The position numbers were made by a program, and so were the translations under genes. Below are positions 1 to 64,000 of a stretch of DNA of 64,000 nucleotides, piece by piece. Position 1 is the stretch's first letter; every line of letters begins with the position of its first letter. Origin of the DNA: Gigantopelta aegis (taxonomy: Eukaryota; Mollusca; Gastropoda; Neomphalida; Peltospiridae); assembly GCF_016097555.1 (NCBI RefSeq), contig NC_054706.1, forward strand, positions 48,096,160 through 48,160,159, given 5' to 3'. The notes under the pieces were generated by a model. It saw nothing but the letters and a program-made list of their open reading frames with translations, made no database searches and was not told the DNA's origin.

Positions 1-74
1 TGGCAGCATTTATTAGCGTTGTGTACGAACCATCAGTACTGCATCCTGCGTTTGATATACAAGTTATATATTTC
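1..74 (-). CDS. Exon 3 (partial) of cysteine-rich gene, copy A
   Basis: The exon begins at 74 after acceptor CAG and runs to the window edge. It encodes [20 protein letters not shown] and a few more residues. It aligns without gaps to 43359-43432 with eight base differences, seven changing residues; both cysteines are kept. Confidence 0.8.
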
Positions 75-9000: not shown

Positions 9001-12000
9001 CTTGTCCGATATTGGAGGGACACTCAGACCTGGGAACTGTCTTAAAACTGATACCTGGGTCAGTTTCAATAAATGCTACCCACAAAGAACGCTTGTGAGA
9101 AAATTGTCATTATGAACATCCCCAAAACAAACAAAGAGGTTCTCCAAAACATAAGTATGATGCGATAGATATAAACTGCATTGCTTATTTAATATCGCAC
9201 ATATACCACAGTGTATACTCTAAAAAGGACACAGTGATGAAATTCTGTAACGTACTAATCCACAATAGTCCACAGAAATTTTACTATATATTTACAATTT
9301 TAGAATAGATACATAAAGCCATAGTTTGGTGTGGCAACATATCTGTTCTAATACAACATATCTGTGAAACATATTCTAATACATTCGAACGTGTCAGTTT
9401 TGAAATATAATTTGATTTGTTTTTTAACTTTCACTGACCTGGTTATAAGAAATAAAGTTTGTTTTGTTTAACGACACGATTACAGCACACTGATGCATTA
9501 ATCATCAGCTATTTGGATGTCAAACATTTGGTAATTTTAACATATAGTCTTAGAAACTAAACCTGCTACATTTCCCCATTAGTAGCAAGGGGTCTTTTAT
9601 ATGCACCATCTACAGACAGGATAGCACATACCACGGCCTTTGATATATCAGTCATGGTGCAGTGGACCACTGATGGGGATTGATGTTAGACCGACCGCGT
9701 ATCAGGCGAGCGCTTTACCACTGGGCTACGTCCTCCCCCCCCCCCCCCCCCCTCCCCCCCTCCCCCCAACTAAACCTGGTTATATATATATATATATATA
9801 TAAAAAAAACAAGTTTAATTCTGAAAGGAAATCTTATGAACTTCTTAAGTTTTCTTGAAATGCACTGCTATCAAGGTGAAGCCTTGAATGGTATTGTTGT
9901 AAAATCTGACAGGAAAAGAAAACTATTAGATATGCCAAATCAGCCATGCTTTTTATCATAGCTGAACTCCATGTACATGAAATTGTATGAAAACGCAAGC
10001 CATGCAGCCCCCACATATTTAACGCAAATAAGACGATTCTTAACCGACAGGTTCCCATAGTGTAAATTAATTAATGAAAGTTAAAGTTTGTTTTGTTTAA
10101 CGACACCACTAGAGCACATTGATTTATTAATCACCGGCTATTGGATGTCAAACGTTTGGTAATTTTGACTCATAGTCATCAGAGGAACCCGCCACATTTT
10201 TCCTAATGCAGCAAGGGATTTTTATATGTACTTTCCCACAGACAGGAAAGCACATACCATGGCCTTTGACAAGTTGTGGCGCACTGGTTGAACGAGAAAA
10301 AAACAACCTAATCAGCTGAATGGATCCACCGAGATGAATCAATGAATGATTGTTTAACGACACCCCAGCACCAAAATTACATCGGCTATTGGGTGTCAAA
10401 TTAAGGTAAAATAAATAAATGAATGTTTAACGACACCCCAGCACGACAAATGCATCGGCTATCGGGTCCCATAGTGTGAGCATACTCACTGGTGATGGAT
10501 AGGTCATTGGACCATTATGATAAAATTTAGGACTTCTAACCATTATTTACCTATTGAGACGTTGGAAAACAGTTCTATTAGAAGATAGACCGTGTACTAT
10601 TGGCAAGGAAAACGATATAGGAGACGAATTTCATTATTTATTTGTATGTAGGGTTTTTTCAATAATACCCGGAATAAATGTTTACCTCCATATTATTCTA
10701 TCCGACCAAATATATATAAATTTAGAGAAGAATAAGCTAAATTCATGAATATAATTTTTCAAGTATTTAAACGCCCATAACAACAACAACAACAACCAAA
10801 ATTACCATACTTTAACCAGTTAATGAAACTGAAGGTCAACATACAACTATACTTGATAATTTTAAATCGTATTACATTATTTTACGTCTTTAGAGCTAAT
10901 TTATGAAACTTTTTTTTTTTTTACATCTAATTATACACGTTTATAAAAACTGAAATGCACTAAATATTTATATTTATATTGAAATGCACTAAATATTTAT
11001 ATCTATATCTTGCAATATCAAGAATTGTACACAGTTGTAAATGAAATATTCTGAATAATTACATTTTACAATATATATCTACATCACGGAACGTATCTAC
11101 ATTGTTAATACACATGTCTCTATAATGTAATATCATGTATTTATATTGTTAATACACATGTCTCTATAATGTAATATCATGTATTTATATTGTTAATACA
11201 CATATCTCTATAATGTAATATCATGTATTTATATTATTAATACACATATCTCTATAATGTAATATCATGTATGTATATTGTTAATACAGTCATATCTTTA
11301 TAATGTAATGCCATGTATTATAGTATTTCTATTTGTATTCATATATGTACCAAACAATGTATTCCTATTATTTGTACCCTTCTGTAAACCATCTTGTCAA
11401 AATCAGAATATGTATATTCCTCTTACGGCGTTGCATAACGGTCTGAGTGTAATAAAGTTCTGTTCTGTTCTGTTCTGAGAGCAGTACATGGCGAACTACT
11501 TACCTACATAGTTGCGTTGTATCAAACCCAGCGGCTGTCGTCTCTGACGCTAGAGTGGTAGCGCACGTCCCCGCAGCCGTCGTGTCACACACACAGTTGA
11601 CCGAAGCAACCAAACCTACAAAATATAATTGAACAGTATTCAATCCGATGACCAGGGGCCGGTATACAGACCACAGGTACCCCTCATTTAATTTCATTTC
11701 AACTTATTTTCGTGTTTATATCCAATTAAGATTCAAGCACGCTCTCCTGGGCACACACACACCTCAGCTATCTGGGCTGTCTGTCCAGGACAGTGGGTTA
11801 GTTGTTAGTAGTTGGTGATTAGTGGTTAGTGGTTAGTGGTTAGTGAGAAAGATCTGGAAGAGGGTGTAGAGTAGTCTTACATCTACCCATAAGGTCGCTC
11901 TGGAAGGGAGCCGGTACCGGGCTGCGAACCCAGTACATATCAGCCTTATGTCCGATGGCTTATCCACGACACCACCGATGCCGGTACCCCTCAAACAACA

Positions 12001-33255: not shown

Positions 33256-33259
33256 AAAA

Positions 33260-36609: not shown

Positions 36610-37113
36610 ATATTGGCGGAAAATGTTAATAAATATTTGTATAATGTTTCTGGTTGAATTTCACTTTTTTTCTGTTTGATCATCGTCTTCAGGAATAGAC
36701 AGTGTGATTCATGCTGCCAAACACTGCAAAATTAATTGTTAATAAAAGGTTATAAATTATGTTTTAACGCTTGACAATGCCTTAGACAAAAACATTTTCA
36801 GAATATTTAACTGAAATATATAGCAACACTAAGGTTCAGGCACGTCCATTATGCATGGGCACGAGTTCTGATTTGCGCCAGATGTTCTGTCCAGGACAGA
36901 AGCAACACTAAAATTAACTTAATATTTTTTTATAGTACTAGTGCCACATATCTTTGTGAGGATTAGCAATTGTATTGCGCAATGACTTTTACATCATTTT
37001 ATGTAACTAGTCACATTCCATGTCAGACATTTAATCTAAGTGTGTGGTAATGTTTGTTTGTGTGTGTTAACGCATGTTTTGCTATTGTGTATGTTAATGT
37101 TGTATTACTTTAA

Positions 37114-37539: not shown

Positions 37540-37628
37540 CTGTGCGTGTGTGTATTATTAATGTTTAAAAATAAACTAAACACATCCATAATCTCCACAA
37601 CCGTAACACAATCATACCAGAAAGTTGT

Positions 37629-37699
37629 TCACTTGAAGAGCATTGCGAAGACAGTGAGAATCATTGTCAAAACTGAAGCGGTTACCATGGCTCCGCCGC
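37629..37699 (-). CDS. Exon 4 (last) of cysteine-rich gene, copy B
   Basis: Acceptor ATTTTGTAG precedes 37699. The first two bases complete a cysteine codon with exon 3. The next 22 codons encode GGAMVTASVLTMILTVFAML followed by FK and a TGA at 37631-37629. The small residues and hydrophobic end look like a GPI attachment signal or a C-terminal membrane anchor. The exon sits in ordinary sequence 5.6 kb from exon 3, so its membership rests on phase fit and the sensible protein end. I see no clear AATAAA in the next 100 bases. Confidence 0.7.
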
Positions 37700-40600
37700 C
37701 TACAAAATAATAACAATGATAAAGAATTAACTAATAATTCAATTTATTATATAGTAATATAGTAATAAGACATTTTAAAATAAACTCTCAGAAACGTCAA
37801 CAATCCAGTGCCAAGTGGAAGCGTCACAGTTGGCGTGAGGATGACATGCACGACAAATCATAAACCATTTTGTTACACCATTTTTCGCCATTGACGTTGA
37901 TAAAGAGGCACCGGCCACGGTGGTGTCGTGGTTAAGCCATCAGACCTAAGTCTGGTAGGTACAGGGTTCGCAGCCCGGTACCGGCTCCCACCCTGAGCGA
38001 GTTTTAACGACTCAATGGGTATGTGTCAGACCACTACACCCTCTTCTCTCTGACTAACCACTAACAACTAACACACTGTCCTGGACAGACAGTCCAGATA
38101 GCGCACGTGTGTGCCCAGGACAGCGTGCTTGAACCTTAATTGGATATACGCACGAAAATAAGTTGAAGAAGAAGAGAAAGAGGCATGCTACCGATATAAC
38201 GATTCTGTCTTTAACGCACGAAACCAGAAAGAACACAAACACACATTCATTTAATATTAACATAATCGCCATAGCAACAACATTGAGGTTATATTTAAAA
38301 ACCATCAAGATTTGCACGGAGGAGGCGGCGTAAGTCGACACCTGCGCCCATGGCAGGCGTGTGCTACAACAGCTTGTTCTGAATGCGCACTTTAAACCTT
38401 ATGACCTGACCTGACCTGACACTGATTCGTGAAGGCATGCTTTGAGGGCTTTAATAAAAGGTATAGTCTTAAAGACACATTCCCGAGTTTGCTGCACGTT
38501 TTAAGATGTTATCGACGAACAGAGACTTTTTAACGATTGTAATTACGTATCAAATATATTCTTCGGTATAAAGACCGGCCTCGGTGGCGTCGTGGGTTAG
38601 GCCATCGGTCTACAGGCTGGTAGGTACTGGGTTTGGATCCCAGTCGAGGCATGGGATTTTTAATCTAGATACCGACTCCAAACCCTGAGTGAGTGCTCCG
38701 CAAGGCTCAATGGGTAGGTGTAAACCACTTGCACCGACCAGTGATCCATAATTGGTTCAACAAAAGCTATGGTTTGTGCTATCCTGCCTGTGGGAAGCGC
38801 AAATAAAAGATCCCTTGCTGCCTGTCGTAAAAGAGTAGCCTATGTGGCGACAGCGGGTTTCCTCTAAAAAACAGTGTCAGAATGACCATATGTTTGACGT
38901 CCAATAGCCGATGATAAGATAAAAAATCAATGTGCTCTAGTGGCGTCGTTAAATAAAACAAACTTTACTTTTTGTTCGGTATAAAATATTAGTGTTTGTA
39001 TATTAAACGTTAGGGAGACACCACAGCATCGTAGAGGTCTAAAATTAACGAGCTATTCTCGATTCACTAATATCAGCTCGGCCATTTACCTTTCGACTGA
39101 CCGTTCAAAATTGCGCCAAATTCCCTCGATCAAAATTGTGCACCCTTTTCTCTTTGGCATTTAACTGCTCCATTCAAATTCCATAGCACCACCACCACCA
39201 CCACCCGCCTGCTACCGATTTGATCGGGCTGCTGGTGCTCCCTTGCACCTGCCAGTGCAGGCGGTCCCTCCTCTCCCCCCCCCCCCCCACCTTTCCTGTT
39301 ATGGACGGAGGAAGCCGGCCAAGGCCGGCTCTTGTGCCCACGACAGGCGTGCGCTACAACAGCTTGTTCTGAATGTGCACGTAAAACACTATGGCATGAC
39401 ATGACATATTAAATGTGTTTCTGTTCGTTCTAATATGTGTACTAGGTTAAATTTCAGTTTATTTCCTAAAATATATATTTTTTATACGTACGAAATTATT
39501 TGAAGACAAAATCCAGTTTGGGCTTCTTACAAATATTAAGTCGACCAGAAACACATTGAATATACAGACACTTATATTGTAAACAAGAAAATGCATTTAA
39601 TTTGTAAGTTTAATCGTAGAAATATTTTATTAGTCAGAAACACCTTACAATGAAGCAACTCAGGAATGTCCCTTTAACGGTAGTCGTAAATCCGCAAATA
39701 TATCCGCACAAATAGTCTGCCGTTTGGCTGTGATAATTTAATGGCAGACAGCTTTGAAGTAGCAACTATTAAACTGACGTTAACAGGGGAGTGCATGTAG
39801 TTTGCATGTTGACACTGAAGACGTTTTTGTGGTAATTCCGGCCAATACAAAAGTAGTGCTTTTTGTTGTAAACTGGGTCTTTTCCGGCCAAGTTTAGTGG
39901 GTGTATTTGTTTAAACCAATATCCTGGAAAAAAGAGCTGGACAACAGGGGTTGTCCTTTTCAGGGCATGTTGCCCTCAGGCAGGCACATATGCATTTAAA
40001 ACGTCCATGGGGCTACTTATGTTAATAAATGTGCTATAACCACTAACGCTATATAAAACATGTAGCATAAATAATTGTGATCTGTGGACATTACTTTCTT
40101 CTACGGTTTCATGACAGATAAAAAAAACCTGTATCCGCTACCGAATAAGTGTGCGTTGGTGTATCCTATGGCCACCTCTCTAAAAAAAACCTGACATTGT
40201 AAACATTCTAGAAATGTTCCAATCGACAGACCATAAATGTTCTAGATGTACGACTGGGGAGTGGGAGAGGTGGACAGTACATTTTTTTTTAACATCTGTC
40301 GTGGTGTAGCCTTCATCTCTGACATACGCAGTTCAATACAGGGCCGTATCAACCGGGGGGGAGGGGCGAGGAGAAGCAGTCCCTCCCCCACCCCCATCCA
40401 ATAATCTCACTTGGGTTTTTTTACTCCACAAAATAGCATACACGTCAGGGTTTAATTTGTATAGTGTTTCATTTGTTTATAAAACGTGGTGAACCCCAAC
40501 CCACCCCACCCATAGGATTTTGATCAGGGTACAATCATGCAATATGATCGAATTCAAATCTCCTTTACTTCTCTGTTCATTGCACATAAGTGAACGAACC

Positions 40601-43228
40601 CAACGTTATTCGAAGTTCACATGACCTTTCATTTAACCAGTCACTGCTGACATACATCTGACAGCAGCTTGATGCCTTTGATTTCATTCCAGTTCAACTT
40701 ATTTTCGTGCTTATATCCAATTAAGGTTCAAGCACGCTGTCCTGAGCACACACCTCAGCTATTTGGGCTGTCTATCCAAGACTGTGAGTTAGTGGTTAGT
40801 GAGAGGAAAGAGGGTGTAGTGGTCGTACACCTACCCATTGAGTCGCTGAAACTCGCTCTGGGTGGGAGCCGGTAGCAGGCTGTTAGCCCTGTACCTACCA
40901 GCCTCATGTCCGATGGCTTAACCACGACACCACCGAGGCCGGTGAAGCCTTTGAAATGACCTGTTCACTTGAACACGGACAGTCATTGGCTCAGATTATC
41001 AGGTGTGACAAGCTGAGAGAACGTGAACTGTAATATTTGGTTTCAGCCAGACTGCTACCCACATTACCGTGAAAGCAAGATCCATATTGATTATTCACAC
41101 ATCCATTCTCCAAACCAAACCGTTCTTAATAATGGCGCACCAAGGAAGACAACTATCAATCTGATTAATATCAGATCAGCTATTATCTGTAGAGGCTATT
41201 TCAATCAGAAAGGACAACCCTCAACGATCACGTTTGTTAAAGTGTGTTTTGTTTAACGACACCACTAGAGCACATTGATTTATTAATCATCGGCTATTGG
41301 ATGTCAATCGTTTGGTAATTTTGACATATAGTCTTATAGAGAGAAAACCCGTTATAGGTTTTCCATTAGTAGCAAGAGATCTTTTATATTCACCATTTGA
41401 CGGACAGGACAGCACATGCAATGGCCTTTGATATACCTCTCGCGGTGTATTAGCTGGAATGAGAAATAGCCCAATGGGCCCACCGACGGGGATCAATCCC
41501 AAGCTGACCGCACATCAAGCGACCGCTTTACCACTGGGCTACATCTCACCCTCTCGTTGATGCCCACCTTGCCACTAATGTAAAATGTAGCGGGTTTCCT
41601 CTCAAAGACTACAGTTCAAAATTACCAATAGCCGATGATTAATAAATCAATGTGCTCTAGTGGTGTTGTGAAACAAAACAAACCTCTTCTTCCCATCTAC
41701 GTCCATCACATAATGCTAATATAGTAATCAGTCAGTTTGTTTTGTTTAACCTCTTCTTCCCATCTACGTCCATTACATAATGCTAATATAGTAATCAGTC
41801 AGTTTGTTTTGTTTAACCTCTTCTTCCCATCTACGACCATCACATAATGCTAATATAGTAATCAGTTAGTTTGTTTTGTGTAACCTCTTCTTCCCATCTA
41901 CGACCATTACATAATGCTAATATAGTAATCAGTCAGTTTGTTTTGTTTAACCTCTTCTTCCCATCTACGTCCATTACATAATGCTAATTAATATAGTAAT
42001 CAGTTAGTTTGTTTTGTTTAACCTCTTCTTCCCATCTACGACCATCACATAATGCTAATATAGTAACCAGTCAGTTTGTTTTGTTTAACGACACCGCTAG
42101 AGCACATTGATTAATTACATAATGCTAATATAGTAATCAGTAGTTTGTTTTGTTTAACCTCTTCTTCCCATCTACGACCACATAATGCTAATATAGTAAT
42201 CAGTTGATTAATTACATAATGCTAATATATTACATAATGTAATCAGTCAGTTTGTTTTGTTTAACCTCTTCTTCCCATCTACGACCATTACATAATGCTA
42301 ATATAGTAATCAGTTAGTTTGTTTTGTTTAACGACACCGCTAGAGCACATTGATTAATTACATAATGCTAATATAGTAATCAGTCAGTTTGTTTTGTTTA
42401 ACGACACCGCTAGAGCACATTGATTAATTACATAATGCTAATATAGTAATCAGTTAGTTTGTTTTGTTTAACCTCTTCTTCCCATCTACGACCATTACAT
42501 AATGCTAATATAGTAATCAGTTAGTTTGTTTTGTTTAACGACACCGCAAGAGCACATTGATTAATTACATAATGCTAATATAGTAATCAGTCAGTTTGTT
42601 TTGTTTAACGACACCGCTAGAGCACATTGATTAATCACATAATGCTAATATAGTAATCAGTCAGTTTGTTTTGTTTAACGACTCCGCTAGAGCACATTGA
42701 TTAATCACATAATGCTAATATAGGAATCAGTCAGTTTGTTTTGTTTAACGACTCCGCTAGAGCACATTGATTAATCACATAATGCTAATATAGGAATCAG
42801 TCAGTTTGTTTTGTTTAACGACTCCGCTAGAGCACATTGATTAATCACATAATGCTAATATAGGAATCAGTCAGTTTGTTTTGTTTAACGACACCGCTAG
42901 AGAACATTGATTAATCACATAATGCTAATTTAGTAATCAGTTAGCTTGTTTTGTTTAACGACACCGCTAGAGCACATTCATTAATTAATCATCGGCTATT
43001 GGATGTGAAACACATGATAATTCTGACACATAGTCATCAGAGGAAACTCGCTACGTTTTTCCTAATGCAGCAAGGGGTCCAGTTGTGATGCACTGGTTGC
43101 AATGAGAATAAAATCAGCTGAATGGATCCACCGAGGTGGTTCGATCCTGTGACGCAAGCACCTGAAGCGAGTACTCAACCAACTGAGCTAAATCCCGCCC
43201 CAATATAGTAATTAGAAGGACATTAATA

Positions 43229-43281
<53 letters not shown>

Positions 43282-46200
43282 AATAATAATAATGTTATTT
43301 GTACTGGACATCAGATAATTATTGTAACAATACTTACAGGATACGTTTATCACAAGGTTGGCAGCCTTTATTGACGTTGTGTACGAACTATCATTGCTGC
43401 ATTCTGCGTTTGACATACAAGTTATATATTTCCTGTATGCGCTATAACAAAAAAAGAAGAAACCAAAAAAAGACACATTTTGTTAGTAGAAATAATAATA
43501 AAATAAAATATGTCTCTTTAAGGTTATACACCACCATTAAAGGGACATTCCCGAGTTTGCTGCAATTTTTAGGATGGTATCGACTTTTTGACGACTGTGA
43601 GTACATATGAAATATATTTTTCTGCATAAAATATTAGTGGCTATATATTAAACGTATTTTTGATCGTTCTAGTATTCGTACTAGGTTACATTTCATTTTA
43701 TTTCCTAAAAAAGATTGTTTCGTACGTACGAAATTATTTGAAGACAAAATCCAGTTTGGGCTTCTTACAAATATTAAGACGACCAGAAACACATTGAATA
43801 TACAGACACTGATATTCTAAACAAGAAAATATATTTAATATGTAAGTTTAATCGTAGAAATATTTGATTAGTCAAATACAATTTCTATTTCAGAATATAT
43901 TCTGTAAAACAAATACCACACTATCGCGAGGGTCATGTGACTACTAATTTTAGGGAGTGCTCTCAACTGACAAGTACCGTGTAAAAAATCAGCATAGGTC
44001 CACCACGAAATTGTTCAGTTGACAGCCCCCATGCCCGAGTACCGCCTCGTGTTGCTGTTATACGTGTGGCACTGTACACCACGTACTACATACAACAAGT
44101 AGCTTCAAACTAGTATACAGTATATGCCAAATCACTATAAATCTATGCACCACAAAATGCTTGAAATATTGTCAAGAGCAAACGCCAGATAATTGTTTTC
44201 CTTGATTTAAAAATTCATCAAAATTGGTCGAAATCAGGAAAATTAATGGACAACTTTTGCGCAACACTGTACATGCAACTATAAAATAAATAAATAAATA
44301 GAAGAAGCGTTGTTATTTTATCCAAGAAAATATAACGGATGATAAAACAAATCGCGCATAAAATTACAATTATTATTTTTGTAATACAAATATTTATAGG
44401 ATATTAAACGAGCTACCATTTCATTTCATGTTTATGTCCCGAGTGAAATAATGTTCAATTGTCTATAGCTATACTATCAAATCAAATCCCATAGACGACA
44501 ATAGTAACATATGTGGCTAAAACTCCTTCCTGCAGCGTATCAGTCGACACAAACACCACGTATATAAATATTACAACCCCTCATCCTTAAAGTGAACCAG
44601 AAAAATATGGAGTGAAGGTGTTCATTTCTGAGATAACGGGTAGCGTCTATGACTACCCTAGTTCCGCACAAAATTTGAGTACTGTTTTTTACAGGTACCC
44701 CATACATGTTTAAAGCACAAGGCTACTTGACACAGTAGTACTAGATGAAATAAAATTGCATACATGTTTTCCCCAGATGAAACTATTTTTGTTTTACAAC
44801 CATAACAACTCACATTTATCACCAATCACAGGACTTCTCTATCAAAAGTTTGGTGCACCTCGAACCAGCCGGATGTTATTTGGTTTAGTACTACCTTTAG
44901 CGAGTGACAATGGATATTATTTCACAAGGGACATAAACATGATACGAAATGGTAGCGAGTTTAATATCCTATTTATTACCCATAATCGATCACTCAACTC
45001 GTTTATTTGACGTTCCAATCAATGACGTCTTCGTGTTACGTCCCACTTGGCATTCTAGTGGGACATATCACTTTGATACCACGATATTTTTAACAATATG
45101 GGTAATAAATTCCATTATGACCTTATTCTAATTGCTGCACACAAATTATGAAACCAATTCACTAGTGTATATTTTACATGTAGACTACGACGGTTGATAA
45201 ATATACACTAATTCAGAAACTGCATAATGACACTTTGTCATCATTGAGCAATTTTTTTTACGGCCATTTTAAAAGCACCACTCCAGGCTAAAAATTACTC
45301 TTTTTTCTGTTCGGCCCATTGCATTATGCTTTAATGTTTTATTTGTACAAGATTATTAGAAGACCCATACCTATTTGGATACCTTTTACAGATACTAAAG
45401 AATAATACAAAACAACAACACAATAGCAACATTTCAGGGGCCTTTGCTGACGGCCATCTTGGTTTTCAAAATGGCCGCCATTTAAACATTTGTTTTTACA
45501 ATATTACCGCACCCAGGCAATTAAAACAATTGTTTTAAGTTATATACAGGTAGGTGGGAATGCTTTCACTACATAAGTAAGACTATTTGTAATCTGTATT
45601 GGTCAAAATAAAAATGGTAACATTTTGGGTGGAGGATTTTCACAGAAGAAAGTTAAAAATAACAGATTAAAAAACAAATCCCAATTTAACCTAATTTACA
45701 CCTTGTAAGGAACATGATATTTTGGCATAATTTCTAAACTTAAATATTGATTTTATTTTAACTAAGAGTATTTCTATGCATTTATGCCAGATTAATATTC
45801 TATACTTATATTAAAGGGATTGGACTATCTTCAGTTTGTAGCTGTTTCAACATTTTCGACAAATAAAATATTAATGCATTGTTAAAATAAAAATTTATGT
45901 TTTCTTGCTTAGAAGATGATTATCTCTATAATCCATGTATTTCTGGACATTGTAATGTTTTGTATCTCAATATCGATTTTTGGTAAATATTTATAATATT
46001 TTTCAATAGCCAAACGAAATTTTAAAACATTGAGATTCCGAATGTATTTATTAGTATGATGCTTTATATGTAAAACATTTTAAGGTAAGATAGTGTTTTA
46101 AAAGACCTGAAAAAGCAGTTTATGTTTATTTTGTTGATGGGGCAGGCTGATGCTTGCCCAAATTAAATAAAATCTGGATACCAACGTTTATTTATATTAG

Positions 46201-47974
46201 CATTACTGCCAAACAGATTACAAGTAATATGGTGGTTAAAATGATGGACATACATGGTGAACACATTTCAGGCTAGCTCATTCTGCCCGAATATCTCTTT
46301 TGTTTTTGCCCGAATTTGAGTGATTTTCTCCAGCACAAGGTGGGCAGTTGGCCCCTGCCACGTGCGCTTATGGGAACAATCAGAAGTCTTGCTAGGTCTG
46401 AAAACACAGGTCAGTCCCTTTAATAAACTTTAGAACCAGCACCCAAAATGTTACCAATTTTGATATGTCATATATTAAAAATATTGTAATATATAACAGG
46501 CTATACTTTTGAAAGAATTGTATATCTTGGTTATCTGGTCTAAAGCCAACCTGGAGATAGAACAGTACTTTTAAAAGTAAAATTACATTTTTTAAACATT
46601 TAACATGTAACTGTTAAATTAATAAAATCACATGTACCTGATATTAGGTGAAATTATTTACATACGTAAATGCAGGAATAAGCTGGTAGCTGTCAAATTT
46701 CATTTGCTATGGAACGTTTGCATTGCATGGCTACGTTATGCATCTTAAATATGGTACAGATAATATAACTTTGTTAACAATAGAGACGTTTTCCTCTAAA
46801 TAATCAGAGAAATATTTTTTTTAAATCCTTATGGTTCCTTGCTTGAAATATCGTTCTGTACACATCCCTGAGGTCCTTTCATTTAGGGAAGCTGTATAAA
46901 GGTTTTTAGCATATGGCTGTATACCATCGCGACTTTCGTAACCTCTTTTGGAATCTGTGCAGAAATACTGTTATTGTCTTTTATATGCTAATGGAAGATT
47001 TGTAATCATCAATCATGTTACATACACTCTGTCAATCTTTATACTGGTTATGTGGATTATTGGAACCAATTTGTTTGGAAAAACGTTTCGTTTAAATGGT
47101 GAAGTCTCTTTACAATAACAACCTACTTTGAATTGGCTGCATCCTACTTTGGTACACAATTTACAGTGAAATTTGATATTCATGTATGATGACATTACTG
47201 TTTTTAATCAGTCATTTTCATCATGCATGGTTTGAGGCTTGTTGCATGTTCTATGTCATATATTTGCAGACAATGCTGCAAGCTAACTCTGCTGTTTGAC
47301 ATGGGCAGTTATTCCTGAAGCAGGCATTTTTAGCAGTGCATGCACGTCATTACTTCCATAAGCTCTGGTGGACCACTGCAGACACACCAGTACAATGACT
47401 GGGTATGTTGTTTATAATTTTGGATATATTCAAATTCAGTTCTGGTGATCGGCAGCTTTTCACAGCATGCTTTGTAGATTTGCTAGCTTGATGTGCTCAG
47501 CCAGAGCAGGATAAGTAGGAGACCGACCTTTGAATCAATTACTTGGGAAGATGGCGTGTTTCAAGTGTTTCATACAAATGTTAAATTGTTTCATTTTGTA
47601 TAGCAAACTACCAAACCGTTGTCATTCATGTATACTGGTATGTACCTTCAGACCAACGGTGTGCTTTAACATTACTGATACATCCCTTAATAAAGAGGCA
47701 GCTGTCTGTGTTACATCATGTGATGTCATATACTGCAAGCACCTGGACAGATTGGTCCACCAAGTTTTGTGTTGTTTTTGCTGTGGCAGTAATGTTAATC
47801 ACTTGACCGTAGGCTTTTGTCATGTAAATTTGAACAGAATATCGCCACTACCAGCAGAAAAATACCAGCAATGCAATGCACTTGTCTGGGTTTTGTTTTG
47901 TCTTGGTGACATATTTCTCCAGTTCCTTGCAGTGCATGCTGTTATAGGATGTGACACCATCACCATCATATCTA

Positions 47975-48018
<44 letters not shown>

Positions 48019-51000
48019 TAATGTTGAAGTTCTTACATATCCTCAAAAATCATGTTTTAAGCAAATTATCGGTTAAATGTTATTTACAACCCTTGCTCTT
48101 GTAGCTAACTTACGCGTCACAGACAAATGATTGTCAGGTTAACTATACGTCACAGTGCAACCAATTTCGACCATGCTGTTTTTTCATTGGATGCTATGGC
48201 ATTGGTGACCTGGCCATCACCTAGGAGCAGCCAGTCGTATGTCTTGAAATTGTTTACAAACGTACATTTGTTAACAATTGTGTGTTACCAAAAATAACGA
48301 ATGGTGTTCTCACCAACAGGTGTGTAAGAAATAGCTGTTTGGCAGATCATTACGATATTGTTATCTTATCATGTGTGTCTTGTGTGCGTCTTTCTGAGTG
48401 TGTAAGGGTGTGTGTGTGTGTGCGCGCGCGCACGCTCGTGCGTGTGCATGTGTGTATAAATGTAAATGTGTGTATGCATGTACGTGCGTACAAATGTGTG
48501 TGTATATTTGCGTATGTGTCGTACTGATGCAGATGTGTGTATTAAATCTCTGTTGTTTACTGTTGTTATATCTAGTTCATATGTTTGCTTTCTCTTTCTT
48601 TTATTAAATGGGAATCTGTCCCCATAACCAGTATACAATGGTTGCAATAAAGATTGTATTGTATTGTATTATATAGTGTTGTAGTGTTGTGCTGTGTTGT
48701 GCTGTGTTGTGTTGTATTGTATTGTATGCGATAGATATAAACTGAATTGCTTATTTAATATCGCACATATACCACAGTGTATACTCTAAAAAGGACACAG
48801 TGATGAAATTTTGTAACGCACTAATCCACAATAGTCCACAGATATTTTACTATATTTACAATTTTGGAATAGATATATAAAGCCATAGTTTTGTGTGGCA
48901 ACATATCTGTTCTAATACAACATATCTGTGAAACATATTCTAATACATTCGAATGTGTCAGTTTTGAAATATAATTTGATTTGTTTTCTAGCTTACACTG
49001 ATCTGGTTATAAGAAATAAAGTTTGTTTTGTTTAACGACACTATTAGAGCATACTGATGTATTAATTATCGGCTACTGGATGTCAAACATTTGGTAATTT
49101 TAACATGTAGTCTTAGAAAGGAAACCTGCTACATTTTTCCATTAGTAGCATGGGGTCTTTGATATGCACCATCTATACACAGGATAGTACATACCACGAC
49201 CTTCGATATATCAGTCATGGTGCAGTGGGCCATTAACGGGGATTGGTGTTGGACCGACCGCGTATCAGGCGAGCGCTTTACCACCGGGCTACGCCCCCCC
49301 CCCCCCTCCCAACTAAACCTGGTTATATAACAAAACAAGCTTAGTTTTGAAACGGAAATCTTATCAACGTCTTACGTTTTTTCCCCTGCATGAAACGCAC
49401 TGCTATCAAGGTGAAGCCTTGAATAGTATTGTTGTAAAATCTGACAGGAAAAGAAAACTATTAAATATGCCAAATCAGTCATGCTCTTATCATAGATGAA
49501 CTCCATGTACATGAAATTGTGTGAAAATGCAACACAGCCCCACTGATTTAACGCAAATACGACGATTCTTAACCCACAGGTTCCCATAGTGCGAATTAAT
49601 TAATGAAAGTTAAAGTTTGTTTTGTTTAACGACACCACTAGAGCACATTGTTTTATTAATCATAGGCTATTGGATGTCAAACATTTGGTAATTTTGATAC
49701 GTAGGAAACCCGCTACATTTTTCCTAATGCAGCAAGGGATCTTTTATATGCACTTTCCCATAGCTAGGTAAGCACATACCATGGCCTTTGACCAGTTGTG
49801 GTGCATTGGTTGAAACGAGATAAAACCCAATCAGCTGAATGGATTCACCGAGATGAATGAATGAATGAATGTTTAATGACACCCCAGCATCAAAATTACA
49901 TCGGCTATTGGGTGTCAAACTATGGTAAAATTAATGAATGAATGTTTAATGACACCCCAGCACCAAAATCACATCGGCTATTGGGTGTCAAACTATGGTG
50001 AAATTAATGAATGAATGTTTAATGACCCTCCAGCACCAAAATTACATCGGCTATTGGGTGTCAAACTATGGTCAAATTAATTAACGAATGAATGTTTAAC
50101 GACACCCCAGCACGACAAATGCATCGGCTATTGGGTCCCATATTGTGAGCATACTCACTGGTGATATATAGGTCAGTGAGAGCGGTACATGGCGAACTAC
50201 TTACCTACATACTTTCGCGTTATCAATCCCAGCGTCTATCACCTCTGACGCTAGAGTGGAAGCGCACGTCCAAGCAGCCGTCGTGTTACACACACAGCTG
50301 ACCGAAGCAACCAAACCTACAGAACACAATAACTGAACATTATTCACTCCGATGACCAGAGGCCGGTATACGGACCACAGGTACCCCTCATTTCATTTCA
50401 TTTCAACTTATTTTCATGTTTATATCCAATTAAGGTTCAAGTAGGCTCTCCTGGGCACACATGGCAGTGGGTTAGTTGTTAGTTGTTGTTGGTGGTTAGT
50501 GGTTAGTGAGAAAGATCTGGAAGAGGGTGTAGTGGTCTTACACCGACCCAGCCCAGGTCCTACCAGCCTTATGTTCGATGGCTTATACACGACACCACCG
50601 AGGCCGGTACCCCTCGAACAACAACGCCGATGACGTTATGGTTATGTTCTAAAATAAAGAGTAAATAAAGGTAGGACACTTAGGGATGAAAATTACCAAG
50701 TCGATTTATGACGAAAAAACCCGAAATCGCCAAAATCCACTTAACAAAAAGTTAAAATTTGTTTTGTTAAACGACACAACTAGTGTACACTGATTTGGTA
50801 ATTTTGACATATAGGCTTAGAGAGGAAATCCGCGCCATTTTCCCATTTAAGTAGCGAGGGATCTTTAATGCAACATCCCTTAGACAGGATAGTACATACG
50901 ATGGCCGTTGATATACCAGTCGTTTTGCACTGGCTAGAACGAGAAACAGCCCAGTGGGTCCACCGTCGGGAATCGACCCCAGACCGACCGCGCACAGGCA

Positions 51001-54000
51001 AGCGCTTTATCACTGGGCTACATCACTTACCAAAAGTATCCATGGTATATTATGCGTTGGATGCATAATTGGTTGTATATTGATACATAACTACTGTAGA
51101 ATATACATACCACCAGCTATAGTATAAATCAAAGTTGGATTACAAGCTTCAGGTTGCATGGTACCAATGAAGAGAGTTCCGTGTCAAAGTTCAAGGTATA
51201 CGGAGTGAAAAACGGCCGTGTCTGTGATTGGTAGTAATATATGAACTTGATTATTGTATAAATACTATTAATAGTATTATTATTATCCATTGGTAATAAA
51301 TAAGAACACTTTTATTTGTTATGCAGTTGTTATGCAGTTGTTATGCAGTATACACCACAGATTGAAACTAATGCAGGGTACCTCCAAAAATGGAACTGCT
51401 GTTGATACGCTGCTTATATCAGTTTTATTAGTTAACTTTAACATTATCAACAATAGGAATTGGAAGGAAATGGTTTATTTAACGACGCACTGAACACATT
51501 TTATTTACGGTTATTTGGCGTCGGATATATGGATAAAGACCACACAGATATTGAAGGAGGAAACCCACTGTCGCCACTTCATGGTCTGAAGGGACATTCC
51601 TGAGTTTGCTGCAATTTTAAAGAAATTATCGACTAAACAGAGACTTGTTGAAGACTATAATTACATATCAAATATATTTTTCTGCATAAAATATTAGTGG
51701 CTGTATATTAAACGTGTTTCTGATCGTTCTAATATTTGTACTAGGTTAAATTTCATTTTATTTCCTAAAAAAGATTTTTTCGTACGTATGAAATTATTTG
51801 AAGACAAAATCCAGAAACACATTGAATATACAGACACTGATATTCCAAACAAGAAAATATATTTAATATGTAAGTTTAATCGTAGAAATATTTGATTAGT
51901 CTGAAACATCTTACAATGCAGCAAACTCGGGAATGTCCCTTTAATGTCTCTCTTTTGGGAGATTATGTCAACTCGATTATGACATACCCTGTTTTGACTC
52001 GTTCCATCGAGTGGTACTAACTAAACACCTATAAACTCCAACCATGACCCGAACTCCCGTGGTTTAAATGCATTTCTCTATACAATAATTATAGTAAACT
52101 TCGCCCCTACCCTGTGGACGAATGGGATACCAAGCATTAATGGAATTGACAAATTAGAAGAACCATATGTTGAACTTTACATATATGAAGACTTTTTGGA
52201 CATCCAATAGCCGATGATTAATAAATACATGTGCTCTAGTGGTGTCGTTAAACAAACAATTTTTTTTTTGCTCTAAGATTATATGTCAAAATTATCAAAT
52301 ATTTGACATCCAATAGCCGTTGATTAATCATCTTCATAAATCAAGGCTAATATTCGTTCCTCGTATTCAGCCTTGATACATGTAGTCAAGATTACTGATA
52401 TCCACTACTAGCGCCCTCTATTGGAAGAAAATTTGTAACACCGATTATGTCCCTTACACGATGACATCGCTGACCAATCACAGCATCGGTAACATGTGAC
52501 AATCTTGAAAGCAATATCAGTGTTCGCCCGCCAACATGGAGTTTACATAACAAGGGAATCTATAAGGAGCGTTGCGATTCGTTGCAATCAGATCTCATCG
52601 CATCCAATGAAATTTAAAGGGACATTCCTGAGTTTGCTGCAAGTTTTAAGATGTTATCGACTAACAAAGACGTTTTAACGATTGTAATTACATATCAAAT
52701 ATATTTTTTCTGGATCAAATATTATCGGCTGTATATTAAATGTGTTTAGAAATTATTGAAAGTTTGTATTCTGATGTCACCGGTAGATGTCGCTTGAAGC
52801 ACAACAATGCCTACGTCACGACAAATTTCACAGACTTGGGGTGCGTTCTTTTCACCTCTCCTGGACATGTTCCAACTGTTCTGTCCTGGTTGTATCCCCT
52901 CTCCAGATATCGTAGGACTTAGCAAAATTATTGGTTTTAAGGGCTTGTAACGTTTTGTATTGATATACTTACTTGTCTGAACTTTATTGTTACTGAAAAT
53001 GTTCACGAACTGTGAAGAAAAATCTCACAAATGAACAACAACAAATCGGATGTTGATTGCGCGAAGCGTGAACGAGAAAACAAACCGAACCAAAATGATA
53101 ACGGTTACGTGGTATACCAACGTCTGTGACATTGAAATGGAAATATCCCGTCTAAAAATAGATTAGACCTTGTCTGCTCAACGTTTTTTTCTCAAACGTG
53201 CGTCCGTTTTTCAGAAATACGAAAAATGCATTTTGTGGTATTACAAACACCAGGATTACCAGGATTACCAAAAATGCAAATGTATATTCTAAATAATAAA
53301 CGGTAAGTAAAGTGCAATTTTATTTGTGAAAAAAATGGGTTTAATAGCGAAAAACAACGCCGTAATGGTTAACAACTAGCCGTAACTAGGGTGTGTCCCT
53401 TTAATATGTAAGTTTAATCGTAGAAATAGTTTATTTTTCGGAAACATCTTACAATGCAGCAAACTCAGGAATGTCCCTTTAAGCATTTTGTGGCACGATT
53501 TCTTGACGACATGTATCAAGGCTGAATACGAGGAACGAATAGTAGCCTTGATTTATGAAGATGATGATTAATAGATCAATGTTCTATAGTGGTGTCGTTA
53601 AACAAAACAAACTTTACTTTAGCTTAGTTGGCAGAGCGCTCGCCTGGGGTGACTGGGTCGAAGGATCGATTCCGTGGTCCCATTCTCTGATTGGTTTCTT
53701 TCCCGTCTGAACCGGTGTGCCCAAAGTAAATTTTGTTTTATTTAACGACGCCACTAGAGTACATTGATTTTTTATCTTATCATCGGCTACTGGACGTCAA
53801 ACATATGGTCATTCTGATACTGTTTTTTTTAGAGGAAACCCGCTGTCGCCACATAGGCTACTCCTTTACGATAGGAAGCAAGGGATCTTTTATTTGCGCT
53901 TCCCACAGGCAGGATAGCACAAACCATGGCCTTTGTTGAACCAGTTATGGATCACTGGTCGGTGTAAGTGGTTTACACCTACCCACTGAACCTTGCGGAG

Positions 54001-56366
54001 CACTCACTCAGGGTTTGGAGTCGGTATCTGGATTAAAAATCCCATGCCTCGATTGGGATCCGAACCCAGTACTTACCAGCCTGTAGTCCGATGGCTTAAC
54101 TACTGCGCCACCGACGCCGATCGGTGTGCCCAACGACTGGTACACCGACCGGCCTCGGTGGCGCAGTGGTTAAGCCATCGGACTACAGGCAGGTAGGTAC
54201 TGGGTTCGGATCACAGTCGACTGGTATACAAAAGACCGTGATATGTGATGTCCTGTATGTATATAAAAAAATATCTTGCTGCTAATGGAAAAATGTAACA
54301 GGTTTCCTCTAGATAGTACGAAACAAAATAACTTCCGCCTAGGTCAAAGTTCGAGGTGCACCCAACTTTTGATAGAGAAGTGAACACCACAAATCCTGTT
54401 AGTGGTGATAAATCTGAGTGTGTTGGTTGTAAAAAAAAAAGTTTCATCTGGGTAAAAAAGGTACCCTGTAAAAAAAAGTACTCGAATTTTGTTCGGAACT
54501 GGAGTAGTCATGGACGTTACCCGTTATCTCAGAAATGAGCAGCTTTACGCGAGTGCGTGTCCGTCCCGAGGCCTGTCCCTGGATAGCCAGTGACTTGCTC
54601 CGGGACAGAACAAAATTAAGGGGACAATTTTGAAATTTACATCCAAAAATTAAATAGTGGGCCTTTAAAATTTTGATGCGCATCTCTAATTAATATAATT
54701 AATAAAGAAAATTCTACTCATTAAATTTGGTCGCTAGATTAGATTGGGCAATCAAAATGAAATTAGATAGATAACACGCCTGATTTTGGATGGGGGGGGG
54801 GGGGGGGAAAATGGACAGAATTTTTAAAATAGCAATTAGTAAAAGAAATTATTAGGATTAAAATTAGAAAGAAAAAAGTTACAAGCCAAAAATAAAAAGA
54901 ATTGACTGCTCGGTCGAATATTTATATAATTTGGAGCATTTTGGAAGGACAGTCCAAAAATAAATAAGAGAAAGAAGAGAGGATCGGACTATTTAATAAT
55001 ATTTTAAAAAAGAAGAAGTAATTGCGACATGAATTATTGAACGAAGGTCTAAAAGTTTTTAAAGTTCGATCTATACGTCCACGTGAGTGGCCTCGTTAAG
55101 GCCGTTAGGTTGTTACGTCGGCGAGGCTGGAGTGTCCCGGAGGTTCGGCAGCAGATGTTGGCGTCGTAAAAGGGTACTGACTACCGGTACATTCCGGTTG
55201 TCCAACTTGTTCGCAAGTATGGCCTGTCTATAGGTCTGCTCCCTCCGGTGCGTCACGACTACGGTGTGGTGAGTACCGAACATCTTGCTGTGAAGTTCGT
55301 ACTCGCTGCCGTCCTCCAGGGGTCTCCAGTCCGCGTTGAGGTAACTGCCACGGAGCTTGGTCGGGTCTGTCGTCTCCCCCTGCATGTACTGATGAAGGTG
55401 TTTCTTCAGTCCGCGCACTGCGACGGTCCACTCGGACTCTTCGGGGGGGGGGGGGGGGGGGGGGGGACTACCGGCGCTGGTCTCTCGGTCTTGGCTGGCT
55501 GGTTGGTCGGTGATGTTGCCTTCCTCTTGCCAACGGCGGCTGATCGGGCCTGTGGCGTGGCGACTGGCTGTACTGGCGAGTTCTGCCTGGCCCGCGTGAC
55601 GGTCGGCGATGGAGGGTCGTCGTGGGGTGTCTCACACACCGCGGTGTTGAGTCGATCCCTCTCGGTGGTCGACGGTTCCCGCAGGGCTGGTCTCGTCAAC
55701 TCAGGCTGGGCTGGGGGCGGCGTCGCAGAAGGGACCGCCGCCAGCTTTGCCCCCCCCCCCCCCCGTGCCGTTCCTGGCGCGCTTTTCCTCTTCCTCCATC
55801 TCCTCTTCTTCGTCGGTACGATCTCGTCACCGTACACCAAAGTCACGGAAGCCCGTGACCCAGTGTACCAGACGCGATACTCCAAAAGTTTTCCATAATT
55901 GCATAAGAGTCCCCCCAGGTGTGTGTGGGGGGGGGGGGGGGGGGGGAGGGGGGCAACTCGAGAGTACAAGGCGACACGTCTGTTCTCATCGTGAATCAGT
56001 TCGGAACCCCCCCCCCCCCCCCAGCAGCTTTACACCCAATTTTTTCGATTTCACTTTAAGGGTGAGGGGTCGTATTTATATCCGTGACGTTTATGTCGAT
56101 TGATACGCTGCAGGTAGGCGTTTACACAAAATTAATATATTACATTCAATACTATTGGCAATAACAGATTATTAATAAATCAATGTGCTCTAGTGGTGTC
56201 GTTATAACAAGCTTTCAATTTGTGTTAAGTGTGTGTGGATTAAAATTATAACAACAACAATAACAACAACAATAATAATAATAATTAAAAATGAAATGAA
56301 AGAAAGAAAGAAAACTGAATAAAACTACTTACCTAAGATAACGAACACTAACATTGTATATCTCAT
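37629..56366 (-). CDS. Small cysteine-rich, probably GPI-anchored secreted protein, copy B (complete, 4 exons)
   Basis: Gene-level entry joining exons 56333-56366, 50205-50316, 43338-43432 and 37629-37699. The lengths 34+112+95+71 give 312 bases, 103 residues plus stop. Each intron starts GT (donors GTAAGTAG, GTAAGTAG, GTAAGTA) and ends AG, and phases 1, 2 and 1 match at every junction. Residues 1-19 form a signal peptide starting [16 protein letters not shown]. Cysteines fall at 19, 21, 29, 48, 54, 60 and 81; cleavage after 19 would leave six. Possible N-glycosylation sites are N22-T-T and N78-V-S. Residues 82-103 are two glycines, a small-residue stretch and a hydrophobic end, as in GPI signals. 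I do not recognise the family and assign no function. Introns of 6.0, 6.8 and 5.6 kb are filled with repeats. Splice phases, a shared paralogue and conserved cysteines make a real gene likely; expression is unproven. Confidence 0.82.
37914..38165 (+). repeat. SINE type 2
   Basis: CACCGGCCACGGTGGTGTCG to TATACGCACGAAAATAAGTT, in intron 3 of the copy B gene. Confidence 0.8.
38573..38974 (+). repeat. SINE type 5, full length, 11-bp target duplication
   Basis: 402 bp flanked by TTCGGTATAAA (38562-38572, 38975-38985). The best reference copy of type 5 in the window. Confidence 0.88.
39011..39406 (+). mobile_element. S7 retroposon, longest copy
   Basis: 396 bp between TATTAAACGT (39001-39010) and TATTAAATGT (39407-39416). 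Starts TAGGGAGACACCACAGC and ends ATGACATGACA. Confidence 0.8.
39678..40686. other. Intron 3 of copy B, no gene seen
   Basis: No recognisable repeat or coding signal; a C-rich low-complexity stretch around 40350-40400. Confidence 0.5.
40687..40942 (-). repeat. SINE type 2
   Basis: Reverse copy, CAACTTATTTTCGTGCTTAT to CACCACCGAGGCCGG. Confidence 0.8.
41238..41552 (-). repeat. SINE type 1b
   Basis: Reverse copy, with tRNA-like head at 41500-41552. Confidence 0.75.
41580..41688 (+). repeat. SINE type 1b tail
   Basis: Ends GTGGTGTTGTGAAACAAAAC next to the tandem array that follows. Confidence 0.7.
41690..42960 (+). repeat. Tandem array of 67-bp and 70-bp units seeded by a SINE tail
   Basis: About nineteen units share CATAATGCTAATATAGTAAT and GTTTGTTTTGTTTAAC. 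One version inserts CTCTTCTTCCCATCTACG; the other keeps the SINE sequence GACACCGCTAGAGCACATTG. The array ends in a real reverse SINE (to 43200). Confidence 0.92.
42961..43202 (-). repeat. SINE type 3, right border of the tandem array
   Basis: Reverse SINE with head TACTCAACCAACTGAGCTAA at its right end. Confidence 0.7.
43220..43292. repeat. AAT/ATG trinucleotide microsatellite
   Basis: Mixed AATAAT and GATAAT units directly below exon 3 of the copy B gene. Confidence 0.9.
43338..43432 (-). CDS. Exon 3 of cysteine-rich gene, copy B
   Basis: A 95-base exon with acceptor CAG and donor GTAAGTA. It starts with the base completing the split codon from exon 2 and ends with one base of a split cysteine codon. 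It encodes two cysteines in the stretch KYITCMSNAECSND and a hydrophilic segment. A trinucleotide AAT/ATT microsatellite lies about 50 bases below its donor (43220-43292). Bases 1-74 of the window are the matching partial exon of copy A. Confidence 0.83.
43537..43872. mobile_element. M1 MITE, right end lost, copy B only
   Basis: Inserted at a TTAA that is single in copy A (176-179). The last part of the right arm and a few flanking bases are deleted. Confidence 0.8.
43873..44473. other. Intron 2 of copy B, colinear with 210-865
   Basis: Duplicated intron sequence with substitutions and small indels. No gene. Confidence 0.7.
44474..44890 (-). repeat. R400 repeat, copy 4
   Basis: Duplicate of 866-1275. 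The SINE at 1390-1708 is missing from the following copy B sequence (near 45025). Confidence 0.7.
45210..48020. other. 2.8-kb block present only in copy B
   Basis: Replaces about 125 bases of copy A (1865-1990). It contains an M2 MITE (45811-46423). The plus-strand frame at 47530-48021 ends in HAVIGCDT, reminiscent of the HAFTGCDT block in some transposon-linked invertebrate proteins; this is weak evidence. It ends in a (TA)n run (47976-48014). Confidence 0.6.
45811..46423. mobile_element. TTAA-flanked MITE, family M2
   Basis: Ends TTAAAGGGATTGGAC and CAGGTCAGTCCCTTTAA form a short terminal inverted repeat at TTAA. The interior is unlike M1. Confidence 0.65.
48262..48727 (+). repeat. 3' end of a retroposon with TTGTA tail, copy B
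   Basis: Duplicate of 8412-8856, with a longer variable tail (48655-48727). Confidence 0.5.
49020..49298 (-). repeat. SINE type 1b, copy B
   Basis: Duplicate of 9457-9733. Confidence 0.8.
49617..49855 (-). repeat. SINE fragment, copy B
   Basis: Duplicate of 10087-10335. Confidence 0.7.
49856..50140 (-). repeat. S6 short repeat, four tandem units
   Basis: Four units of about 70 bases versus two in copy A. The extra units arose after the duplication or were lost in A. Confidence 0.8.
50205..50316 (-). CDS. Exon 2 of cysteine-rich gene, copy B
   Basis: A 112-base exon between an acceptor (TAG at 50317-50319, minus strand) and a GTAAGTAG donor. It is open in the frame set by exon 1. It encodes the end of the signal peptide and four cysteines in a threonine- and alanine-rich context, and ends in phase 2. 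The copy A counterpart (11504-11615) has identical length and splice sites but 15 base differences, 14 of which change residues. Confidence 0.85.
50391..50605 (-). repeat. SINE type 2, copy B
   Basis: Duplicate of 11687-11982 with an internal deletion; flanked by the same target repeat (GGTACCCCTC). Confidence 0.8.
50757..51027 (-). repeat. SINE type 1b, copy B
   Basis: Duplicate of 12131-12431 with a small deletion. Confidence 0.75.
51463..51586 (-). repeat. SINE type 1a, remnant in copy B
   Basis: First part of the SINE at 12994-13323; cut at the start of the next MITE. Confidence 0.75.
51587..51944. mobile_element. M1 MITE, copy B
   Basis: Left end AAGGGACATTCC without TTAA, right end CCCTTTAA. 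About 30 bases of the right centre are deleted. Confidence 0.8.
52329..53564. mobile_element. DNA transposon with 56-bp terminal inverted repeats
   Basis: Ends beginning TCATCTTCATAAATCAAGGC match over 56 bases with one mismatch (52328-52383 and 53509-53564). They are flanked by an 8-bp TGATTAAT (52321-52328, 53565-53572) and sit inside a SINE tail. An M1 MITE (52614-53482) lies inside. I see no transposase, so this copy is non-autonomous. Class is open; an 8-bp duplication fits hAT. Confidence 0.8.
52614..53482. mobile_element. M1 MITE with foreign central segment
   Basis: Normal arms at 52614-52748 and 53399-53482, but about 650 bases of unrelated sequence replace the centre. Some of it (52750-52925) has a short plus-strand frame without known relatives. 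Confidence 0.75.
53724..54121 (-). repeat. SINE type 5, nested, 11-bp target duplication
   Basis: 398 bp between CGGTGTGCCCA (53713-53723) and its copy (54122-54132). Confidence 0.85.
54143..54224 (+). repeat. SINE type 5 head fragment, nested
   Basis: Only the tRNA-like head, CCGGCCTCGGTGGCGCAGTG to CTGGGTTCGGATCAC, flanked by GACTGGTA-type repeats. Confidence 0.7.
54326..54548 (+). repeat. R400 repeat, copy 5, left part
   Basis: Continues at 56023-56125. The insertion at 54549-56022 splits it. Confidence 0.7.
54549..56022 (-). mobile_element. Unclassified 1.5-kb mobile element with an unknown protein domain
   Basis: Flanked by the 11-bp repeat AGCAGCTTTAC (54538-54548 and 56023-56033). 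The matching place in copy A (near 15795) is uninterrupted. On the minus strand it starts with a G run, encodes a proline-rich protein plus an unknown domain (55113-55969), and ends with an AT-rich 3' region (54604-55080) and a GTCCCGAGG...CCGGGAC hairpin. The AT-rich part recurs at 62345-62865, so this is a multi-copy family. No known transposase, RT or tail motif was recognised. Confidence 0.78.
55113..55969 (-). CDS. Proline-rich protein with unknown domain, in the mobile element (frame broken at a poly-C run)
   Basis: The first frame (55969-55406) has a basic patch (PTKKRRWRKRKSAPG), a low-complexity Pro/Thr-rich stretch, the block GKRKATSPTNQPAKTE and a polyproline run from a C homopolymer. 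The second frame (55418-55113 and a little upstream) carries the domain: LHQYMQGETTDPTKLRG, DGSEYELH, VVVTHRREQTYRQAIL. The two frames meet at the homopolymer (55443-55467), so one base more or less would join or separate them. Close relatives lie at 62873-63375 and 63382-64000. The basic patch suggests nucleic-acid binding or nuclear location (inference). I do not recognise the domain. Confidence 0.65.
56333..56366 (-). CDS. Exon 1 (coding part) of cysteine-rich gene, copy B
   Basis: Thirty-four coding bases from the ATG at 56366-56364 to the donor whose intron starts at 56332 (GTAAGTAG). It encodes [11 protein letters not shown] and leaves one base (G), so intron 1 is phase 1. The hydrophobic stretch joins the first residues of exon 2 to complete a signal peptide. 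The matching exon of copy A at 16498-16531 differs at two positions, one of them silent. Confidence 0.82.
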
Positions 56367-63375: not shown

Positions 63376-63381
63376 CCGCCA

Positions 63382-64000
63382 GTGGCGGTCCCTTCTGCGT
63401 CGCCGCCCCCGCCGACCACTCAGAAGAGGACGACAGAGCCGAAGGCCCAGGAGTCCCCGGAAACGACCTACTCGGTCCTGGATACAGCAATGTACCAGAG
63501 GAAGAGGAGGGAGCCACCGACTTCTACTCCGAGGATTGCGTCTCCGGCGCGGCGGTCAACTTTATCGACCGCCCCCGTTGAGTCGCCTGTTGTTGTTCCT
63601 GCTGCAGGCAAGAGGAAGGCTACTTCGCCGACCCACCAGCCCGACAAGGCACCGCCGCAACATCCGTCTACCCCCCCCCCCCCCCCCCCCCCCCCCAGCA
63701 GAACCGGCAGGAGACTGGCACTTAGCCGTGGATAAGATCAAGCCACAGTACCGGAAACTTCTGCAGGGGAACACTGCTGATCCGAAGAAGCTGAGAGGGA
63801 AGTTGCTCAACGTGGCATGGACCAAGCTGCCCGACGACACGCATTTTGAACTTCACAGCATTACGTTGGAAGGAGAACCAGGACTTGTGGTCACACAGCG
63901 CCATCAGGACGTCTACAGACAGGCGATACTCATCCCGGAAATGGATAGCCACACCATACACCGGATGGTCAAGGCAGTCTGCGGCGACGCTGTGTATCTG
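63382..64000 (+). CDS. Unknown-domain protein, third copy (plus), runs off the window
   Basis: A proline-rich part AVPSASPPPPTTQKRTTEPK resembles AAVPSATPPPAQPELTRP of the 55-kb copy. It is followed by GKRKATSPTHQPDK and a C homopolymer (63671-63696). After a frame change at the homopolymer comes the domain: AVDKIKPQYRKLLQGNTADP, KKLRGKLLN, LPDDTHFELH, GLVVT, YRQAIL, MDSHTIHR, to the window end. It lies head to head with the minus copy at 62873-63375. Confidence 0.6.

Follow-up and report, generated by a model that had tools for sequence, protein, structure and literature searches.

A scattered four-exon gene for a small, probably surface-anchored cysteine-rich protein in Gigantopelta aegis, its tandem copy and a possible likeness to repulsive guidance molecules

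Among short, cysteine-rich animal proteins anchored by glycosylphosphatidylinositol (GPI), a usual kind is the Ly6/uPAR type, whose domain carries eight or ten cysteines in a three-finger beta fold. The repulsive guidance molecules (RGMs) are described as co-receptors, the N-terminal domain of which is a three-helix bundle with three disulphides and binds ligands of the bone morphogenetic protein (BMP) type (PMC7354924). In that account, the ligand contacts of RGMB are given as Arg100, Gly101, Leu103 and His106 (PMC7354924). Here, a stretch of 64,000 nucleotides from Gigantopelta aegis (contig NC_054706.1, positions 48,096,160 to 48,160,159; the window) is analysed with respect to its minus-strand gene LOC121379205, referred to as gene A, whose product has six mature cysteines and is compared below with these systems.

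Two further proteins, compared by description only, are of relevance. The N-terminal domain of Twisted gastrulation (TWSG1) is, like the predicted snail product, a small helical disulphide-rich domain, and it too is described as binding BMP-type ligands; it differs in having about 50 residues, with three helices held by 7 disulphides, and its authors report that they found no structural homolog (PMC11167000). CRASP of Achatina achatina is likewise a helical, cysteine-rich and taxonomically restricted snail protein. It differs, as described, in its 158 residues, in its ten cysteines forming five disulphides and in being secreted (PMC4596865).

Gene A and its product

The coding exons of gene A lie at 56366-56333, 50316-50205, 43441-43338 and 37699-37629 of the minus strand, the start codon being at 56366-56364. 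Spliced with the exon 3 acceptor at 43441, they give exactly the isoform X1 of LOC121379205 (P0001), over 106/106 residues. Since that protein was deposited separately, the identity makes a chance explanation negligible. Judged by this match, the scattered four-exon gene is real and already listed, under the label uncharacterized; its entry in the database is a gene model, and gene A is known here from the DNA and that model.

A sequence-only reading had pieced this gene together almost without error, from four tiny exons spread over 18.7 kb. It had called the gene hidden, which it is not, because it is publicly listed under its LOC number. The gene itself and the sizes of exons 1, 2 and 4 (34, 112 and 71 bp coding) stand, and so do the intron phases 1/2/1 and the GTAAGTA-type donors, which read gtaagtag, gtaagtag and gtaagtat after exons 1, 2 and 3. 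One splice site was misplaced. Exon 3 carries a tandem acceptor, TATAG/CGCATACAG/GAAAT, in which two AGs lie 9 nucleotides apart; the second (43432) had been used, and it is the upstream one (43441) that gives isoform X1. Exon 3 is 104 bp and not 95 bp, and the product, by its identity to isoform X1, has 106 residues and not 103. As a check of the model as first read, the proposed exon lengths were accepted, and every AG-112-GT (45) and AG-95-GT (71) stretch lying between exon 1 and exon 4 was joined. Of the combinations, four were free of internal stops and coded for five cysteines or more; among these, only the proposed one had GTAAGT at both inner donors.

A protein search with the product as first read matched this gene and a paralog, returning only three proteins, all from Gigantopelta aegis, a deep-sea vent snail (peltospirid): isoform X1 (106 residues) and isoform X2 (P0003, 80 residues) of LOC121379205, and LOC121380072 (P0002, 106 residues), the paralog, with 69% identity to isoform X1. 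Further searches with a 2-row and a 3-row profile gave only the same three; this method needs shared 5-residue words, and distant mollusc relatives may be missed. A literature search for LOC121379205 found no paper.

Isoform X2 skips exon 3 and joins exon 2 to exon 4, whereby the frame is shifted, and it then ends in CLAA and a stop. Exon 4 (37618..37699) would be read in two frames. For isoform X1, it is coding to 37629, with the GPI-type tail and the TGA at 37631-37629; for isoform X2, it is read in the other frame to 37618 (this isoform matches 37707-37618), from which the exon end is derived. In the window, an AG followed by codons for Cys-Leu-Ala-Ala-stop has a single minus-strand match, at 36723, behind a TTTTGCAG acceptor and downstream of exon 4. 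Taken together with the end of isoform X2, this sole match indicates CTG/GTATGA as the probable donor of exon 4 and 36723 as the probable start of a fifth exon. Its first bases (36709..36723, minus strand; TGTTTGGCAGCATGA) would encode the CLAA-stop of isoform X2 and would be 3' untranslated for isoform X1, the stop codon of which lies 11 bases ahead of the predicted exon 4/5 junction. The gene, first placed at 37629..56366, seems to extend beyond the lower limit. If it is not splicing noise, isoform X2 would be an 80-residue precursor with no anchor, from which helix 3 of the modelled product and most of its helix 2 are missing.

The product had been read as a secreted protein with six mature cysteines that is probably GPI-anchored, and its sequence agrees with this, having a signal-peptide-like start and a hydrophobic tail. 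The hydropathy of isoform X1 peaks at both ends (3.4 and 2.8 over 9 residues), Gly-Gly-Ala precedes the tail, and the chain ends 22 residues past the sixth mature cysteine. The protein probably takes the secreted route and is probably GPI-anchored. The spacing of the mature cysteines in isoform X1 and LOC121380072 is C-x7-C-x18-C-x8-C-x5-C-x20-C; with the misplaced acceptor, its third gap had been given as C-x5-C.

That no known family fits holds for Pfam and NCBIfam. With the product as first read, Pfam gave only DUF6391 (E 0.96, below its cut-off), which is no longer reported with the corrected sequence, for which Pfam lists nothing; the prokaryote-oriented NCBIfam gave no match at E<=1. Weak rows from PDB sequence searches, ebhA (E 4.6) and flavodoxin (E 0.87), are unrelated, and one further such search came back empty. 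The viral structure library held no match at E<=0.001, and no paper on such a mollusc family was among the literature matches listed. With the corrected spacing, a resemblance to the RGM N-terminal domain does emerge, not conclusively, and is weighed further below.

The tandem copy and its divergence

The picture of a single gene was incomplete as well, since besides the 3' exon a paralog inside the window had been overlooked. When the window was searched by tblastn with isoform X1, isoform X2 and LOC121380072, a tandem copy was found on the same strand as gene A. This copy B has exon 1 at 16498..16531 (34 bp) and exon 2 at 11504..11615 (112 bp), both followed by gtaagtag donors, while its exon 3 (1..83) is cut by the left edge of the window. 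Exons 1 and 2 have the lengths and donors of their counterparts in gene A, exon 3 has the same tandem acceptor, and the rest of copy B lies outside the window. A stretch of intron 2 of gene A (43872..44925, minus strand) is 88% identical to 1311-193 of copy B, and a second intron alignment joins 49986-48726 of gene A to 10467-9160 of copy B, again at 88%. These long alignments argue that the gene was duplicated together with its intron sequence. Copies A and B differ at 26/228 coding bases, and copy B is also distinct from LOC121380072; hence, there are at least three copies. Copy B was not returned by any of the protein database searches (single sequence, 2-row and 3-row profiles).

The comparison of the copies bears on the 103-residue form, which may be made as well, through the downstream acceptor, to give two surface variants differing by the junction residues SAY. 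Gene A and copy B each have the two AGs at a distance of 9 nucleotides, and either one preserves the reading frame. However, the database search gave for LOC121379205 only the upstream-acceptor isoform X1 and the exon-skipped isoform X2, and the three junction residues are also present in the LOC121380072 protein; the exon 2/3 junction tripeptide is SAY in isoform X1, SAK in LOC121380072 and SAN in copy B. The shorter form would, moreover, alter the gap of 8 residues that separates two cysteines of a predicted helix. Such a second variant is, on this evidence, unlikely.

Between isoform X1 and LOC121380072, 17/19 residues of the leader and 20/22 of the tail are identical, and only 36/65 of the middle. 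The six mature cysteines are identical in these two proteins, and copy B keeps all five that the window covers. With little change in the cysteine framework, the leader or the anchor but divergence at other residues, the copies may bind different partners. Over 76 codons, 22 nonsynonymous and 4 synonymous changes separate A from B (dN 0.139, dS 0.078, omega 1.78). In the mature part, there are 20 and 3 such changes (omega 2.25), and in the leader 2 and 1 (omega 0.58). In the flanking non-coding DNA, 69/633 aligned sites in five blocks differ (10.9%), a count that includes a low-complexity, poorly aligned block downstream of exon 1 (38 of 50). Positive selection was considered and set aside: omega exceeds 1, but Fisher tests were non-significant for mature nonsynonymous against non-coding differences (p 0.18) and for nonsynonymous against synonymous changes (p 0.29 mature, 0.34 whole). 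The claim is limited by these tests to a suggestive, non-significant one, namely that the mature part may be under weak constraint or that selection may be diversifying it.

Intron 2 of copy B also holds retrotransposon remains at 3542-5864 (minus strand). One frame shows an RNase H-like domain above its cut-off, together with weak integrase-type matches below theirs, and the next frame a SCAN domain.

Likeness to the RGM N-terminal domain and competing explanations

Two structure models of the product, one of moderate and one of low confidence, are both helical. The best solved-structure matches of the AlphaFold model (predicted local distance difference test 69.5) are the N-terminal domains of RGMs, and RGM ranks first by structure for both models. 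Ribosomal S20, MIT, cytochrome b562 and similar matches were taken as common helical arrangements. Like the N-terminal domain of the RGMs, namely RGMA, RGMB and RGMC/hemojuvelin, the snail product is predicted to be a three-helix bundle and has six cysteines in the same order, the gaps being 7-18-8-5-20 in the snail and 4-22-8-7-21 in RGMA/RGMB. RGMs are membrane-anchored, as the snail product would be. An N-glycosylation sequon also lies near the last cysteine in both, as NVS or NES at 81-83, three residues ahead of it, in the snail, and at Asn120, directly ahead of it, in RGMB. Between the third and fourth cysteines, RGMB reads CKALRAYAGC, RGMA CAALRSYALC and the snail proteins CSAYRKYITC and CSAKRKYKTC, so that C-x-A-x-R-x-Y-x2-C is common to the snail protein and RGM.

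By BLASTP, only this stretch aligns (E 0.056). With hhalign, the snail and RGM profiles align over it and some flanking residues at E 0.0056, and full-length rows give E 0.008. When the snail columns were shuffled, 2/900 reached the hhalign score, and 5/900 did so when shuffling was confined to the residues between fixed cysteines. Shuffling RGM between its cysteines gave 3/500, and two smaller runs (200-fold) gave 0 and 0. The profile comparison and the shuffles together point to a relation with RGM.

Several observations weigh against such a relation. The hhalign alignment at E 0.0056 has a probability of only 6.5%, and the sequence comparison was made after the structural match had been seen. 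PDB sequence searches gave no RGM chain at E<=10. Unlike RGMs, the product has no neogenin-binding C-terminal domain and no significant HMMER match, and no Pfam RGM model was reported for it. The RGMB contacts Arg100, Gly101, Leu103 and His106, placed by our own count on the RGMB chain and flanking the helix 2-3 linker, align to Ser64, Asn65, Ser67 and Thr70 of isoform X1; at the same sites stand Ser, Ser, Gly and Thr in LOC121380072 and Ser, Thr, Gly and Thr in copy B. With these residues replaced, the RGM binding mode is not preserved, and since the C-terminal part of RGM is missing too, the product is not filed as an RGM.

The reading favoured here, with a probability of roughly 0.55, is that a real gene with a tandem duplicate encodes a GPI-anchored surface binding module of RGM-N-like fold. 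A signal peptide of about 19 residues would direct the product into the secretory pathway, and its hydrophobic tail would be removed after a small-residue site near Cys84-Gly85-Gly86, with addition of a GPI anchor. The mature chain of about 65 residues is modelled, with moderate confidence, as a three-helix bundle of the RGM N-terminal fold, probably held by three disulphides. Displayed at the cell surface, it may serve as a small module that binds an extracellular partner in the manner of a co-receptor or decoy; this is the least sure step.

The competing explanation is a lineage-restricted orphan, helical and cysteine-rich, in which the RGM layout is convergent and the role lies in defence, gametes or symbionts. 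The protein searches, within the limit of their method, found only the proteins of gene A and LOC121380072, all from Gigantopelta, and sequence-only PDB and Pfam searches show no relative. Small disulphide-rich helical orphans are described in snails, as with CRASP (PMC4596865), and three-helix disulphide bundles occur in other folds, such as the Twisted gastrulation N-domain (PMC11167000). Gigantopelta aegis is also reported to host two endosymbionts (PMC7895826). Against convergence stand the C-x-A-x-R-x-Y-x2-C block and the first rank of RGM by structure for two models, which are unlikely by chance, the test being post hoc. An orphan of this kind is a serious contender at a little under even odds, and if the RGM link fails, the product belongs to a surface protein family that is ordinary and apparently taxon-restricted. 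A three-finger protein of the Ly6/uPAR type would suit the size, leader and GPI-type tail. However, the product has only six mature cysteines with gaps of 18 and 20 residues, the models are helical, and Pfam reported no Ly6 family, which leaves this identity highly improbable.

Returning to the surface module of RGM-N-like fold, a more far-reaching version of it is that the gene founds a family in snails whose members are single RGM-N-like domains on a GPI anchor, tandemly multiplied and with a fast-evolving surface. Each would comprise the part of a BMP co-receptor that binds the ligand but not the part that binds neogenin, and would work as a co-receptor or decoy in miniature for a ligand of the transforming growth factor beta superfamily or another cystine-knot ligand. 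This is speculative and rather doubtful. A link to the dual symbiosis of the snail is conceivable. To the listed gene, the present analysis adds the probable position of a fifth exon, a tandem copy absent from the protein database search results and the RGM-N-like predicted fold. If true, the RGM link would extend the fold of a vertebrate BMP-signalling co-receptor to a minimal anchored form in a mollusc, and it would give an orphan surface protein a testable function.

Other features of the window

Between the two gene copies, at 22824-23942 of the plus strand, lies an intronless open frame of 373 residues with several hydrophobic stretches, resembling a seven-helix receptor by eye; searches of Pfam at E 0.01 and of PDB sequences at E 0.001 gave no match for it. 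Proline- or glycine-rich open frames overlap on both strands at 55113-56029 and 62873-63735. Their minus-strand products look related by eye, which suggests a repeated element; for two of these minus-strand frames, Pfam gave no match at E 0.01. A minisatellite spans 31583-33256, with 42-bp units repeated 42.5 times and an overlapping 117-bp period, and a plus-strand frame is open through it for 261 and 203 codons. Over the whole window, the minus strand has 10 GTAAGTA sites and the plus strand has one; both gene copies found are on the minus strand.
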